The notes beneath the pieces are model-generated. The model was not told where the DNA came from and searched no databases. It was given only the letters and a program-made list of their open reading frames with translations. Positions 6,543-34,999 of a stretch of DNA of 64,000 nt are shown piece by piece. Position 1 is the first letter of the stretch. The number at the start of each line of letters is the position of its first letter. The stretch spans positions 4,891,501-4,955,500 of the forward strand of contig NZ_CP146991.1 of NCBI RefSeq assembly GCF_001941975.2. The letters are read 5' to 3'. The stretch comes from Sporomusa sphaeroides DSM 2875. Lineage in GTDB: Bacteria > Bacillota > Negativicutes > Sporomusales > Sporomusaceae. The translations under genes and the position numbers were made by a program.

Positions 6543-6577
6543 GTATATATATTTGGCAGTAGCACGTAAAGAAAACA

Positions 6578-6657
6578 CGGCTTGCGCCAAGCCTTTGGCG
6601 ACAGCGCAAACCGATGTTGCCCTTATCCTGCTTTTAAGAAAGTTATACTTTCTGTTA
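6578..6657 (+). repeat. Dispersed intergenic repeat A, copy 1
   Basis: About 80 bases shared with copies at 34686-34767 (very close) and 21061-21105 (partial). The first half is an imperfect palindrome (CGGCTTGCGCC ... GCGCAAACCG). The second half carries a short hairpin AGAAAGT-TAT-ACTTTCT. As in copy 3, it lies immediately before a terminator stem in the same orientation. No open frame is shared between copies. Confidence 0.75.
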
Positions 6658-6663
6658 GGACAA

Positions 6664-6697
6664 AAAAATAGAGAAGGCGATAGCCTTCTCTATTTTT
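6664..6697. terminator. Bidirectional terminator between yibE/F-like gene and dnaB
   Basis: A perfect 15-pair stem with a GATA loop (6664-6678 with 6683-6697). The outer five pairs are A-T on each side, giving a U tract on both strands. It serves the convergent genes on both sides. Confidence 0.93.
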
Positions 6698-22073: not shown

Positions 22074-22158
22074 AGCCTGCGGGATATAGGTCCCGCAGGC
22101 TTTCCTGCTGCTTGCTGCCCGGCTGCGCCTTATGGTAAAGGCCGCCTGTTCCTACTTT
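22074..22158 (-). ncRNA. NiCo (czcD) riboswitch with terminator platform
   Basis: The leader of the CDF gene reads on the minus strand TAGG-AACAGGC ... GCGCAGCCGGGCAGC ... GCAGG-AAAG-CCTGC-GGGA-CCTA. The conserved CAGGC, GCAGCCGGGC and GxGGGA elements and the four-helix layout (P1 TAGG/CCTA, P2 GCCTT/AAGGC, P4 GCAGG/CCTGC) agree with the Ni/Co-binding czcD motif as I recall it. The 3' strands of P4 and P1 can instead pair in an 11-pair terminator stem (22084-22074 with 22101-22091) followed by TATTTTTATTTT. Metal binding would therefore prevent termination and switch efflux on. Confidence 0.88.
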
Positions 22159-22163
22159 ATATT

Positions 22164-29530: not shown

Positions 29531-31840
29531 TTATCGGTAAAATTTAATCGGTTCGGCATTTGTCTCCATATTCCAGACACCGCAGGGACAAATACCGGCA
29601 CAAATACCGCACCCAATACAGCTTGCCGGATCTGACACATATTCGGCGCCATTTTCCCCGGCCAGCCGGGTGATGGCATTTTCCGGGCAGGATTTAAGGC
29701 ACATATGGCAATCACGGCAAGTACCACAGCTAATGCAGCGGGCGTAGTCACCGCTGGCGTCAGGTACATCGCAGCTATGACATTTTTTAAAGTAGGCGGT
29801 ACTCATCCGCTCTGCCGGAATCCTAATCTTCCCTGCAGGCATATAGGCGGCACTCCTCAGATAGGCGTCGGCAGCCAGGGCGGCCTCGCGGCCGGCACCG
29901 ATGGCGTCCACCAGCCGACCGGGACGAATGGTGTCACCGGCCGTAAAGATACCGGGAGCCACACTATAATTACCGGCCGGTTGCAAAAAGCCGCGTTCCA
30001 AAGCAATACCGTCAGGCACAAAATCCAGATCAGGCACTTCACCAATAGCAATGATTACGGTATCGCCTTTAATCAGCTTGCCATCTTGCGTAATGATTCC
30101 CTCATCTGTCACCTCTTTGGTAAATACCGGCCAGCAAATTTCTCCGCCCAGCGCCTTAACGTGCGCCAGCTCCGCCGCGAAGGCAGCCGGCCGCTGCACG
30201 TCAATGCAGGTAACCTGTTCTGCGCCAAGGCCATAGGCCCCGACAGCCACATCCATGCCCGAGTTGCCGCAGCCGATAACGATGATCTGTTTACCAATAG
30301 CCGGTTTTTCTCCTTTGTTGATGGCTTTAAGGAAATCCAGACCTTTGATAATGCGTTCATGCCCCGGCCAGGGAATCACTTTGGTTACATGCGTCCCGGT
30401 GGCCACCACTACCGCATCATGACATTCTTTAATAGAAGTAAATTTTTCTTTGTCCACACTTACCCCGGTTTTATAGGCAACACCCATGGCCGCAATGCGG
30501 GCGATCTCCCGTGTCAGCGTCTCCTGCGGCAGACGGGAGCGCGGGATAACCTGCTCCATTTTACCGCCCATTTTTTCATCGGCTTCAAATACGGTTACCT
30601 TATGCCCCAGCCGCGCCAGCTGCCAGGCAGCTGTCAGTCCGGCAGCGCCGCCGCCGATGACGGCCACATGTTTGCCGGTTTCAGCCTCAGGCATAGGTAC
30701 GTCAACGGCTGACGAATATCGTCCCAGTTTACCGATTTGCGCTGAAATATCCACGGTTTTGCGGGTACAGTCATCCATGCAGAGATTAGGGCATACTGCG
30801 CCGCACACAGAACCGGGGAAAGGTGTATATTCAAGCACCAGACGGTAAGCTTCCTCAATCCTGCCGTCCCGGAGCAAGTTGAAACGCTGCTGGGATGGGA
30901 TTGAGGCCGTGCAGTTAAATTCGCAGGGGGCGCTATATTTTCCATTCTCCCAGACAGGGACGCGCCGGCGGTATTCTCCTGTCGCAACAGTATCGATAAC
31001 GGTAAAGTCGTCGTCACAGACATCACTGAAAATACTGCCAGGCACCCAGGCACTGTTCCGGAAGGAAAACAGGTCGGTGTTGGCTTTTTTGGGACGTTCG
31101 TCATAAGAAAGCGGTACTACCTTGTGCCATTCCTGCCAGTCAGTCAGTTCTGTTCTTAGTTCCGGCCGGCCGACTGCATTCAGAAAGTCCTCCATTTTTC
31201 CGTCAAGATAGGCAATATCTTCTGCTGCCAACGGCAGAATCTTGGTATCTTTGGCCGATATGCCGCCGGCACTGCCCCGGAAGTAAACAATGCCTCCCAC
31301 CATCCCGGTGCAAGCCCGGTCACCCAATACCGAATCAAACTGTTCACTGTCATAGCCGCACACTACGGCAATGCCGCCACCCATGAACTCAAAGGCAAAG
31401 CTGCCGACATTTTTAAGTACCCAGAATTCCGGCGCGTCAAACAGCGGGTCATGCTTCATCAGCGAACCGGAGCGGGTTCCCGCCCTGCCGCCGACATAAA
31501 TTGTGCCGGCAGCGGCACAATGAGCAGCCGTATCGCCGCCATCGCCTTTTACGACAATCCGGCCGCCGGCGTTAAGCCAGCCGATATCGGCCGAGGCAGA
31601 GCCTTCCACAATAATTTCCGTTCCCGGCAAACACATGGAGCCTACCCGCTGACCGGCATTTTTGACCAGGAAGGTAAGCGGTTTTCCTTCCGGATGCCAC
31701 AGCGGACCGCCAATATCATGCTGACCTGCCGCTTCAATATAAAATTCGGTTTCTCCCTGCGCCAACGCTGCATTAATGCTTTCTAAGAGGTCCTGCGTGG
31801 ACATCCGGTTGTTACCGTCAATGGTATTTATTTTAAACAT
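29531..31840 (-). CDS. Glutamate synthase: GXGXG domain fused to GltD-like oxidoreductase and ferredoxin domain
   Basis: A 769-residue fusion. Residues about 20-220 form the beta-helical GXGXG domain of glutamate synthase large subunit (VEGSASADIGWLNAGGRIVVKGDGGDTA). A GltD-type section follows: an iron-sulfur N-terminal part with CEFNCTASIP and CGAVCPNLCMDDCTRKTV, an FAD site VIGGGAAGLTAAWQLARLG and an NAD(P) site VIGCGNSGMDVAVGA. The C-terminus has ferredoxin-like clusters (CISCGTCRDCHMCLKSCPE; CIGCGICAGICPCG). It would deliver electrons to the FMN subunit. In archaeal-type split enzymes the GXGXG protein is usually separate, so this fusion is notable. AGGGGGACC precedes the ATG. Confidence 0.88.
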   Translation of the reverse strand: MFKINTIDGNNRMSTQDLLESINAALAQGETEFYIEAAGQHDIGGPLWHPEGKPLTFLVKNAGQRVGSMCLPGTEIIVEGSASADIGWLNAGGRIVVKGDGGDTAAHCAAAGTIYVGGRAGTRSGSLMKHDPLFDAPEFWVLKNVGSFAFEFMGGGIAVVCGYDSEQFDSVLGDRACTGMVGGIVYFRGSAGGISAKDTKILPLAAEDIAYLDGKMEDFLNAVGRPELRTELTDWQEWHKVVPLSYDERPKKANTDLFSFRNSAWVPGSIFSDVCDDDFTVIDTVATGEYRRRVPVWENGKYSAPCEFNCTASIPSQQRFNLLRDGRIEEAYRLVLEYTPFPGSVCGAVCPNLCMDDCTRKTVDISAQIGKLGRYSSAVDVPMPEAETGKHVAVIGGGAAGLTAAWQLARLGHKVTVFEADEKMGGKMEQVIPRSRLPQETLTREIARIAAMGVAYKTGVSVDKEKFTSIKECHDAVVVATGTHVTKVIPWPGHERIIKGLDFLKAINKGEKPAIGKQIIVIGCGNSGMDVAVGAYGLGAEQVTCIDVQRPAAFAAELAHVKALGGEICWPVFTKEVTDEGIITQDGKLIKGDTVIIAIGEVPDLDFVPDGIALERGFLQPAGNYSVAPGIFTAGDTIRPGRLVDAIGAGREAALAADAYLRSAAYMPAGKIRIPAERMSTAYFKKCHSCDVPDASGDYARCISCGTCRDCHMCLKSCPENAITRLAGENGAEYVSDPASCIGCGICAGICPCGVWNMETNAEPIKFYR

Positions 31841-31852
31841 GCAGAGGTCCCC

Positions 31853-33490
31853 CTAACATACATATTGGATAGCCAGCTTGTCGGCAATGGCTTTATCGGT
31901 ACTAACCAGGGCATCAGAGCGTCCCACAGGCAGCGAGCTGTTGCCGACAGGCGCCATAAGCTTTTTGAGTTCGCTGTCTAAGGCCAGCATGTAGTCAACA
32001 ATGTTTTGCGCCGCTTTATCAATATCCAGACGCTTTACCAGCCGCGGGTTCTGGGTACAAATACCGGCAGGACAGTTACCGGTGTTGCAGGCATTGCAGC
32101 GGCCAAGTTCATTGCCGACGCAGCCGCACAGCTGAATCAGCATTTTGCCCATAAAGACACCATTGGCACCCAGACAGATGAGTTTGAAGGCATCGGCTGC
32201 CGCGTTGCCTGTTAAGCCTACGCCGCCGCCGGCCCATAACGGGATTTGTCCCTGGCGGCCCTGCTTAACCGCAGCAAGATAACATTCGCGGGCTTTGGAC
32301 ACCACCGGATGTCCGGTATGGTCAAGCGACACTTCATTGGCGGCGCCGGTCCCTCCCTGGATGCCGTCAATGAAAAAGCCGCCGCAAATTTTGTATGGGT
32401 CGCGCAGCAAGTTGTTATAAACGGAAACCGAGGTCGCTGAAGCCGCACATTTGATGGCAACAGGTACCCGGAACTTGAAGGCGGCATTCATGGACATAAA
32501 CATCTTTTGTACCGACTCTTCAATCGAATACAGTCCCTGGTGATTAGGCGGTGATAACAGGTCGGCCTTAGGTACGCCGCGAATAGACTGTACCGGTTTA
32601 GATACTTTGGCTGCCGGCAATAGTCCGCCGTCACCCGGTTTGGCACCCTGGCCGATTTTGATCAGAATGCCGGCCGGGTCTGCCTTCATGTGCGGCAATG
32701 CCTGGATAATCCGGTTCCAGCCAAAATGACCTGAGGCAATTTGCAGAATCATATATTTCAGCTGCTCGGATTGCAGGAGCTTTTTCGGCATGCCGCCTTC
32801 ACCGGAGCACATCCGCACAGGCAGATTATGTTTTTCGTTGAGATACGCCGTGGCCATGGCAACAGCTTCCCAGGCCCGGGTTGAAAGGGCACCAATAGAC
32901 ATATCGCTGAAGATTACCGGATAAATCCAGTTTACCGGCGGTGTCTGAGTCGTCAGTTTAAGTTCCCGGCCATCGGAAGCCAGCGGCAATTCATGGGGCA
33001 AAAGCACCCGGCCAAAAGGAGCCAGGATATCAAAAGTATGCCGTTCAGAGTCTAACGCCGGGTCGGTCATTTGCGAAATCCGGCCAACCACAATCCGGTC
33101 CAGTGTCCGGTCGCCGCCGCTAAGATTGTTGCGTCCGCCGCGTTTAACCGGCGAGCCGCCGCTCCGGTTGAGATAATTTATCCGTGAATCCAGGTTGCGC
33201 ACAGGTTTAATGGCACTGTTCGGGCACACCTTTTCACACATGCCGCAGCCCACACAGGCGTTGCCTACAGCTGCCTTCTGCTTAATGACCGGAATGGCCA
33301 TATGCCGCTGGCTGGGTTCAGGCTGGTGGCCGGTGGATACGGTAACAGACCGCCGCTCCATGGCCGCCTCTATTGCGTTAAAGGTACAGGCAGCCACACA
33401 GCTGCCGCACATGGTACAGCGTTCATGAACATATTGTAATTTCCACGGCAGATCATTAACGCTGACATCCTGCACTTTTACTGTTTCCAT
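31853..33490 (-). CDS. Glutamate synthase FMN-binding synthase subunit with ferredoxin domain
   Basis: Catalytic subunit of 545 residues. An N-terminal section with two [4Fe-4S] motifs (CTMCGSCVAACTFNAIE and CVGCGMCEKVCPNSAI) is joined to the TIM-barrel FMN domain of glutamate synthase, with KIGQGAKPGDGGLLP, QGGTGAANEVSLDHTG and GGVGLTGNAAADAFKL. The cysteine cluster CGCVGNELGRCNACNTGNC near the C-terminus fits the 3Fe-4S region. It would combine 2-oxoglutarate with ammonia passed from the amidotransferase. It overlaps the amidotransferase gene by 13 bases. Confidence 0.9.
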   Translation of the reverse strand: METVKVQDVSVNDLPWKLQYVHERCTMCGSCVAACTFNAIEAAMERRSVTVSTGHQPEPSQRHMAIPVIKQKAAVGNACVGCGMCEKVCPNSAIKPVRNLDSRINYLNRSGGSPVKRGGRNNLSGGDRTLDRIVVGRISQMTDPALDSERHTFDILAPFGRVLLPHELPLASDGRELKLTTQTPPVNWIYPVIFSDMSIGALSTRAWEAVAMATAYLNEKHNLPVRMCSGEGGMPKKLLQSEQLKYMILQIASGHFGWNRIIQALPHMKADPAGILIKIGQGAKPGDGGLLPAAKVSKPVQSIRGVPKADLLSPPNHQGLYSIEESVQKMFMSMNAAFKFRVPVAIKCAASATSVSVYNNLLRDPYKICGGFFIDGIQGGTGAANEVSLDHTGHPVVSKARECYLAAVKQGRQGQIPLWAGGGVGLTGNAAADAFKLICLGANGVFMGKMLIQLCGCVGNELGRCNACNTGNCPAGICTQNPRLVKRLDIDKAAQNIVDYMLALDSELKKLMAPVGNSSLPVGRSDALVSTDKAIADKLAIQYVC

Positions 33491-34653: not shown

Positions 34654-34685
34654 TGCTCACAAGTCTTAATTTTTAAAGAATACAC

Positions 34686-34767
34686 AGCTGGCTCCGAGCC
34701 TTTGGCGACAGCGGAAACCGGTGTTGCCCTTATCCTGCGTTTAAAGAAAGTTATACTTTCTGTTAGA
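34686..34767 (+). repeat. Dispersed intergenic repeat A, copy 3
   Basis: About 80 bases nearly identical to 6578-6657 across GCCTTTGGCGACAGCG, TGTTGCCCTTATCCTGC and the AGAAAGT-TAT-ACTTTCT hairpin. As in copy 1, a terminator stem follows at once on the plus strand. Here the element lies inside the 5' leader of the glutamate synthase operon. Confidence 0.78.
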
Positions 34768-34778
34768 ATAAAGACAAT

Positions 34779-34828
34779 AAAAAGACCTGGCGAAATATCC
34801 TAACCTAGGACTTTCCGCCGGGTCTTTT
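34779..34828 (-). terminator. Terminator of the ykkC-type riboswitch
   Basis: On the minus strand AAAAGACCCGGCGGAAAG pairs with TTTCGCCAGGTCTTTTT with minor mismatches, followed by TTTTTATT. It starts at the 3' edge of the riboswitch aptamer and lies 195 bases before the glutaminase gene, as expected for an attenuation platform. It may also end selB read-through. Confidence 0.82.
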
Positions 34829-34829
34829 A

Positions 34830-34964
34830 TACCCACGGTGTAGTGCTCGTTACGTCGCACCTGTGCCGCTTGGTCCAGCCCACTTTGCAGCGCGGAACCC
34901 TAGGCACACTCCTTAAAGTACGTTTGTACGTAACAGATGCACGACGCTGTACACTGTTTCTCTT
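34830..34964 (-). ncRNA. ykkC-family riboswitch, probably subtype 2a (ppGpp)
   Basis: The minus-strand leader contains CTAGGGTTCCG (34903-34893), GGCTGGACC (34880-34872) and ACACCGTGGG (about 34841-34832), the conserved blocks of the ykkC-yxkD aptamer in the right order. The family has guanidine (subtype 1), ppGpp (2a) and PRPP (2b) binders. Subtype 2a is, from the literature as I recall it, found before branched-chain amino-acid and glutamate synthase genes, whereas PRPP members precede purine genes. The gene order here therefore favours ppGpp. A consensus promoter starts the RNA and a terminator follows it. Confidence 0.83.
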
Positions 34965-34970
34965 GAGTAT

Positions 34971-34999
34971 ATTATAAAAACGAATTGTTATACTGTCAA
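34971..34999 (-). promoter_or_regulatory. Consensus promoter of the riboswitch and glutamate synthase operon
   Basis: TTGACA (34999-34994) and TATAAT (34976-34971) on the minus strand, both perfect with 17-base spacing. The predicted start near 34964 coincides with the 5' side of the riboswitch, and the whole 34585-35018 gap is thus leader plus promoter. Confidence 0.9.

Follow-up and report, generated by a model that had tools for sequence, protein, structure and literature searches.

A probable ppGpp-type ykkC riboswitch ahead of the split glutamate synthase operon of Sporomusa sphaeroides

The 64,000-nucleotide stretch of the Sporomusa sphaeroides genome analyzed here (the window) carries on its minus strand, from position 34999 to 34780, a promoter followed by an aptamer and a terminator, after which a three-gene glutamate synthase (glt) operon begins (Table 1). 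This leader very probably contains a riboswitch of ykkC subtype 2a (ppGpp), which would turn on transcription of the operon (ON switch). Its parts and their positions, the mutual exclusivity of aptamer and terminator, their conservation and the subtype signature are directly apparent in the window and its relatives. An initial annotation had proposed a perfect promoter, the blocks CTAGGGTTCCG, GGCTGGACC and ACACCGTGGG in that order, and a terminator before a split glutamate synthase. All of these were recovered: the promoter matches at every position, the three blocks follow one another as proposed along the minus strand, the terminator stem overlaps P3 and P0, and the downstream genes are identified by Pfam domains (genes 2 and 3) and by likeness to an amidotransferase (gene 1).

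Table 1. Features of the glutamate synthase leader and operon (positions in the window)
Feature	Position	Strand	Remarks
Sigma-A promoter	34971-34999	-	-35 TTGACA (34999-34994), 17-nt spacer, -10 TATAAT (34976-34971); 12/12 match
ykkC subtype-2 aptamer from P0 to P0 (predicted to sense ppGpp)	34807-34913	-	RF00442 52 bits; 2a 106.8 vs 2b 90.7 bits; four-way junction fold
P0 5' strand AGGA	34910-34913	-	Pairs with UCCU 34810-34807; GGGA/UCCC in relatives
P1/P1a/P1b arm with CUAGGGUUCCG and CUGGACCAAGCG	34862-34908	-	C34868 at the guanidine-I A position
P2 hairpin (GGUGC ... GCACU)	34842-34861	-	Pairs kept in 12/12 or 11/12; pair types flipped in L137
P3 hairpin GGGU-AUAAAAG-ACCC, after ACACCGU	34820-34834	-	C34840, the C75 equivalent, predicted to pair with the ppGpp guanine (role per PMC6031431)
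G in the PRPP/ppGpp discriminator slot (counterpart of T. mathranii nt 96)	34819	-	Alignment comparison
Intrinsic terminator; cannot form together with P3 and P0	34780-34828	-	Folding of longer leader; equivalents in 12/12 glt leaders examined
Dispersed repeat (repeat A)	34678-34771	-	In leader, outside the switch
Glutamine amidotransferase subunit of split glutamate synthase, 368 aa	33478-34584	-	Aligns over 327 aa with a Pfam GATase_2 protein (27% identity)
FMN (Glu_synthase) subunit with 4Fe-4S domains	31853-33490	-	Pfam PF01645, 1e-63
GXGXG + GltD-type NAD(P)H oxidoreductase subunit	29531-31840	-	Pfam PF01493, PF14691, PF07992

In each of the family's 11 glt loci the promoter likewise matches 12/12, with a 17-nucleotide spacer. 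Between promoter and aptamer (34964-34914), TGTACA-like motifs are repeated, as they are in most relatives' glt leaders; they possibly form a leader hairpin or an operator. The gene order selB-riboswitch-glt is common to the window and one Sporomusaceae MAG, and a search with ARAGORN found no tRNA-Sec gene (selC) adjoining selB. Elsewhere, a NiCo riboswitch at 22086-22163 (minus strand) exceeds the Rfam gathering score and is the sole above-threshold Rfam match in the whole window.

At the leader itself, the Guanidine-I family (RF00442) matches over its full length (1-107) at 34914-34813, with 52.0 bits and an E-value of 1.7e-8 (481 bases searched), and no other Rfam family reaches an E-value of 0.1 there. 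The match was found by an E-value threshold and lies below the gathering score of 63 bits. The initial annotation had held that lack of an above-threshold covariance-model match would refute the riboswitch; taken literally, there is no such match for Guanidine-I (52 against 63 bits), and the full-length match was obtained nonetheless. Elements of the non-guanidine branch ("subtype 2") are expected to score under the cut-off, because the Rfam model is tuned to subtype 1. Together with the conserved family blocks (CUAGGGUUCCG, CUGGnCC(G/A)AG and ACAC-G) and the P1-P2-P3 architecture, the full-length match confirms membership of the ykkC family.

Guanidine-I, although the sole Rfam family matched and alike in core blocks and overall fold, is a hardly credible identity (subtype 1) for the element. 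Apart from the score, the position that is a conserved A (A46) in guanidine-I aptamers is a pyrimidine in the 2a (ppGpp) and 2b (PRPP) aptamers, and an extra helix, P0, is found in 2a and 2b (PMC6031431). In the window, C34868 within CCAAGCG replaces the pocket A (GAGAG; A46 of the solved structure), providing the pyrimidine expected of 2a at the C49-equivalent position (PMC6031431), and a P0 helix (AGGA/UCCU) joins the aptamer ends. The gene context is also different, and a genuine guanidine-I element (80.6 bits) is found elsewhere in the genome, where it precedes an SMR efflux gene. A guanidine-I identity was rejected on the score and the pocket base.

Unconstrained energy folding of the isolated aptamer yields a four-way junction (-39.8 kcal/mol), and RNAalifold recovers P0, P1, P1a/b, P2 and P3 in both the 2a and the 2b alignments. 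Over 12 glt leaders, compensatory changes occur in P0 (G-C in relatives, A-U in the window), P1 (C-G to U-A) and P3 (G-C to A-U) and, as flipped pairs in the glt-linked element L137 of another lineage, in P2, so that the pairs are kept.

The subtype was assigned with models built from a search for a subtype-2 pattern in 84,980 species genomes, which gave 81 elements among the matches listed, sorted by downstream genes. The 2a covariance model (R1) was made from 23 amino-acid-linked elements and the 2b model (R2) from 36 purine-linked elements, again among the matches listed; Sporomusa and every glt-linked element were left out of the training. The window element scores 106.8 bits (E about 1e-28) with R1 and 90.7 bits with R2, placing 2a ahead by 16 bits. 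The labels behind both models come from gene context and ORF reading and not from assays of ligand binding; for a few 2a elements (L081, a peptide transporter; L096, a gene resembling a lyase) the motif itself helped to set the label. The control sets separate fully by the difference R1 minus R2: all 11 pur controls fall on the PRPP side (-18 to -24 bits), and untrained ilv and paaK elements give +4.5 to +16 and +24 to +32 bits, respectively. All 11 family glt elements are on the 2a side (+6.8 to +16.1 bits), and so are glt-linked elements of other lineages (L137 +22.5, L125 +10.3, L107 +8.9 and L073 +8.6 bits), with a weaker context in L073 and L107, where the first product, as judged by reading rather than by a family search, is an FMN protein that resembles glutamate synthase and stands alone.

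Individual positions, numbered (80, 81, 95 and 96) by our own mapping from the text of PMC6031431, agree with this assignment. U80, the 2a form, is present in the glt, ilv and paaK elements of all 11 genomes, versus A in 11/11 pur elements. P3 of the window has the 2a form (ACACCGUGGG) with a Watson-Crick pair G81-C95, whereas 2b elements are mismatched at 81-95; the P0 ends read AGGAG...GUCCU, whereas those of 2b elements are nearly always GAAAG...GUUUC. The claim of a ppGpp subtype is thus upheld at the level of sequence by the pocket C, P0, the ACACCGUGGG P3 and the 16-bit lead of the 2a model; the ligand itself is a prediction, and the base at slot 96 leaves some room for PRPP. On these grounds, ppGpp appears to be the most likely ligand.

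The ppGpp riboswitch (ykkC 2a) was described by Sherlock, Sudarsan and Breaker in 2018, as cited in PMC5912903, PMC6031431 and PMC7266159, and according to the same three papers 2a elements are found ahead of glutamate synthase genes and act as ON switches in response to ppGpp. Compared with the published 2a consensus (taken from PMC5912903 and PMC6031431), the window element shares the four-way junction with P0, the pyrimidine in place of the guanidine-I A, the ACACCGUG entry into P3, the overlapping terminator (ON architecture), and an amino-acid biosynthesis or transport gene downstream, here a glutamate synthase operon, a context already listed for 2a. It differs in that its ligand is predicted, in that the Sporomusa glutamate synthase is split into three subunits, and in that slot 96 holds G instead of A, U or no nucleotide.

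This last difference makes the ligand of the window element a real question, not a formality. Nucleotide 96 switches specificity: G specifies PRPP, and A, C, U or absence specifies ppGpp; G96A moves specificity about 40,000-fold, in the T. mathranii aptamer G96 lowers the affinity for ppGpp (91 uM), and alignment around this nucleotide is called difficult (all PMC6031431). With the slot alignment ambiguous to that extent, G34819 of the window corresponds to the invariant G96 of 2b, and the family glt elements have G in 10 of 11 cases and U in the remaining one (G011); U is also found in L137. Among the matches listed, 36/36 PRPP-type elements have G at the slot, whereas of the 24 amino-acid-linked 2a elements 17 have A, 3 have U and 2 have G, the other 2 being unclear or different. 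The glt-linked elements of other lineages lack G: L125 has A, L137 has U, and the nucleotide is missing from L073 and L107. The two 2a elements with G, contrary to the published rule, are L098:7404-7530 (ilvE, Melghirimyces profundicolus) and L110:1583-1714 (liv, Clostridium rhizosphaerae).

An aptamer that senses PRPP (2b), or both PRPP and ppGpp, would account for the G shared by nearly all family glt elements and by the PRPP-type elements; the strands flanking the slot also equal those of PRPP aptamers in length, the fold is alike, and in PRPP aptamers G96 flips out, forms a pair with C75 and makes contact with the ribose of PRPP. Such a ligand is nevertheless unlikely, given the 16-bit deficit with the 2b model, the intact 81-95 pair and the different P0 ends. 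Two sister glt elements (G011 and L137) have U for G and keep the remainder, the ilvE- and liv-linked 2a elements have G too, and the operon contains no purine gene. The genome's own 2b element, in addition, adjoins a guanine aptamer, which the window element does not. Very unlikely is a 2a-like aptamer with the same ON mechanism but a preference for a different guanine nucleotide or a related ligand, such as pppGpp: 2a aptamers preferring pppGpp or ppGpp are known (PMC12373219) and the window pocket differs at one specificity base, but positive evidence for a different ligand was not found. It is rather doubtful, too, that the Sporomusa glt aptamers are natural in-betweens, with a ppGpp-type scaffold and a PRPP-type G, which would answer PRPP as well or ppGpp only at high concentration.

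The preferred reading, a ppGpp-responsive ON switch, draws its mechanism from the overlap of aptamer and terminator. When the longer leader is folded, the terminator stem 34828-34780 forms instead of the aptamer; its 5' arm holds the 3' strands of P3 and P0, and therefore the two structures exclude each other. Where slot 96 is U (G011 and L137), the partner in the terminator is A. A simple terminator scan did not list the 34828-34780 stem, we think because of its internal mismatches. Transcription would start at the strong promoter and, when ligand is lacking, the nascent RNA would shift to the terminator hairpin (AAAAGACC...GGUCUUUU) and stop before the genes. Amino-acid shortage would raise (p)ppGpp, whose guanine is predicted to pair with C34840 and whose phosphates would lie between P0 and P3; the bound ligand would then lock P3 and P0, block the terminator and let RNA polymerase enter the operon. 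That ligand favours read-through is likely by analogy, the arrangement being that reported for 2a and 2b, and very probably the glutamate genes are turned on as ppGpp rises.

The first product of the operon, the 368-residue subunit, has no match in Pfam, NCBIfam or PDB. The protein to which it is 27% identical is a class-II glutamine amidotransferase encoded beside a glutamate synthase gene in another genome. The subunit is 74-93% conserved in Negativicutes, and a scan of viral contigs found no relative of it; its AlphaFold model (pLDDT 36) was not used. A scan with the 2a model of 29 other loci encoding distant homologous glutamate synthases in other Firmicutes found no riboswitch before them.

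Within the family, ykkC elements occur in 11 of 12 genomes. Each of these 11 has one element apiece before glt, ilv, paaK and pur, and the glt element precedes the same operon in every one. The genome-wide RF00442 search returned eight matches in S. sphaeroides, assigned by gene context. Besides the guanidine-I element and the window element, they comprise a PRPP-type element before purine permease-purE-purC, directly after a guanine aptamer (RF00167, 85.9 bits), an element before ilvN-ilvC-leuACD, a 2a-type element before a phenylacetate-CoA ligase gene (paaK; L012:8100-8193), an NDP-type element before a HAD-Nudix fusion, an odd ykkC-like element before the gene of an exported protein (L011:2980-3078; C1:2063279-2063377, plus strand), and a chance match inside a coding gene. 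The guanine-PRPP aptamer tandem is a published arrangement, and the HAD-Nudix fusion is a published 2c context. The odd element contains CTGGGATTCCG, CTGATCCGGGAG and ACACGAAAGATAGAAGTCTGGGAG, and has AGA/UCU in P3 for GGG/CCC and a perfect overlapping terminator; the exported protein after it has a weak FG-GAP match, and none of 380 other genomes of the class contains the core pattern of the element.

The paaK element lies near the ilv operon in 11/11 genomes (S. sphaeroides and 10 relatives), and the S. sphaeroides copy lacks the 5' P0/P1 strand. Decay of ykkC elements thus does happen in this genome; it is nonetheless extremely improbable that the window element is a degenerate or non-functional relic, as it has every conserved block and an intact P0, its 2a score is top-class, its promoter and terminator are conserved, and 11 of the 12 family genomes retain it.

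The initial annotation had also placed a "repeat A" element between the terminator and the first gene. Its presence and place are correct; it is, however, an unrelated dispersed repeat and no part of the switch. Repeat A is about 95 nucleotides long and consists of two hairpin-forming halves, with a second copy in the window at 6571-6664 and further ones in L183-L212. At least 40 copies are present in the genome, often right after terminators and sometimes in tandem; it occurs in nine other family genomes, with many copies in other Sporomusa, and matches no Rfam family. It is missing from the orthologous glt leaders of five relatives (G002, G004, G009, G010 and G011) and stands at another distance in three (G005-G007). 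A role as part of the switch was ruled out by this dispersal and these absences.

Glutamate synthases are named among the 2a-linked genes in PMC5912903. The link between 2a and glutamate synthase being already published, the window element is a good but expected new example, and it adds a conserved and clean one; a literature search combining Sporomusa, riboswitch and ppGpp found no paper in the collection searched. The G at the specificity base makes the element a natural test case for how strictly a single base separates PRPP from ppGpp recognition, and, if the Sporomusa aptamers were in-betweens, glutamate synthesis would be tied to both starvation and ribose-phosphate supply. A single genome with guanidine-I, ppGpp-, PRPP- and NDP-type ykkC elements is also a handy set for comparing specificities in one organism. 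For the Sporomusa acetogens, the element means that nitrogen assimilation is probably controlled by ppGpp directly, through the RNA.
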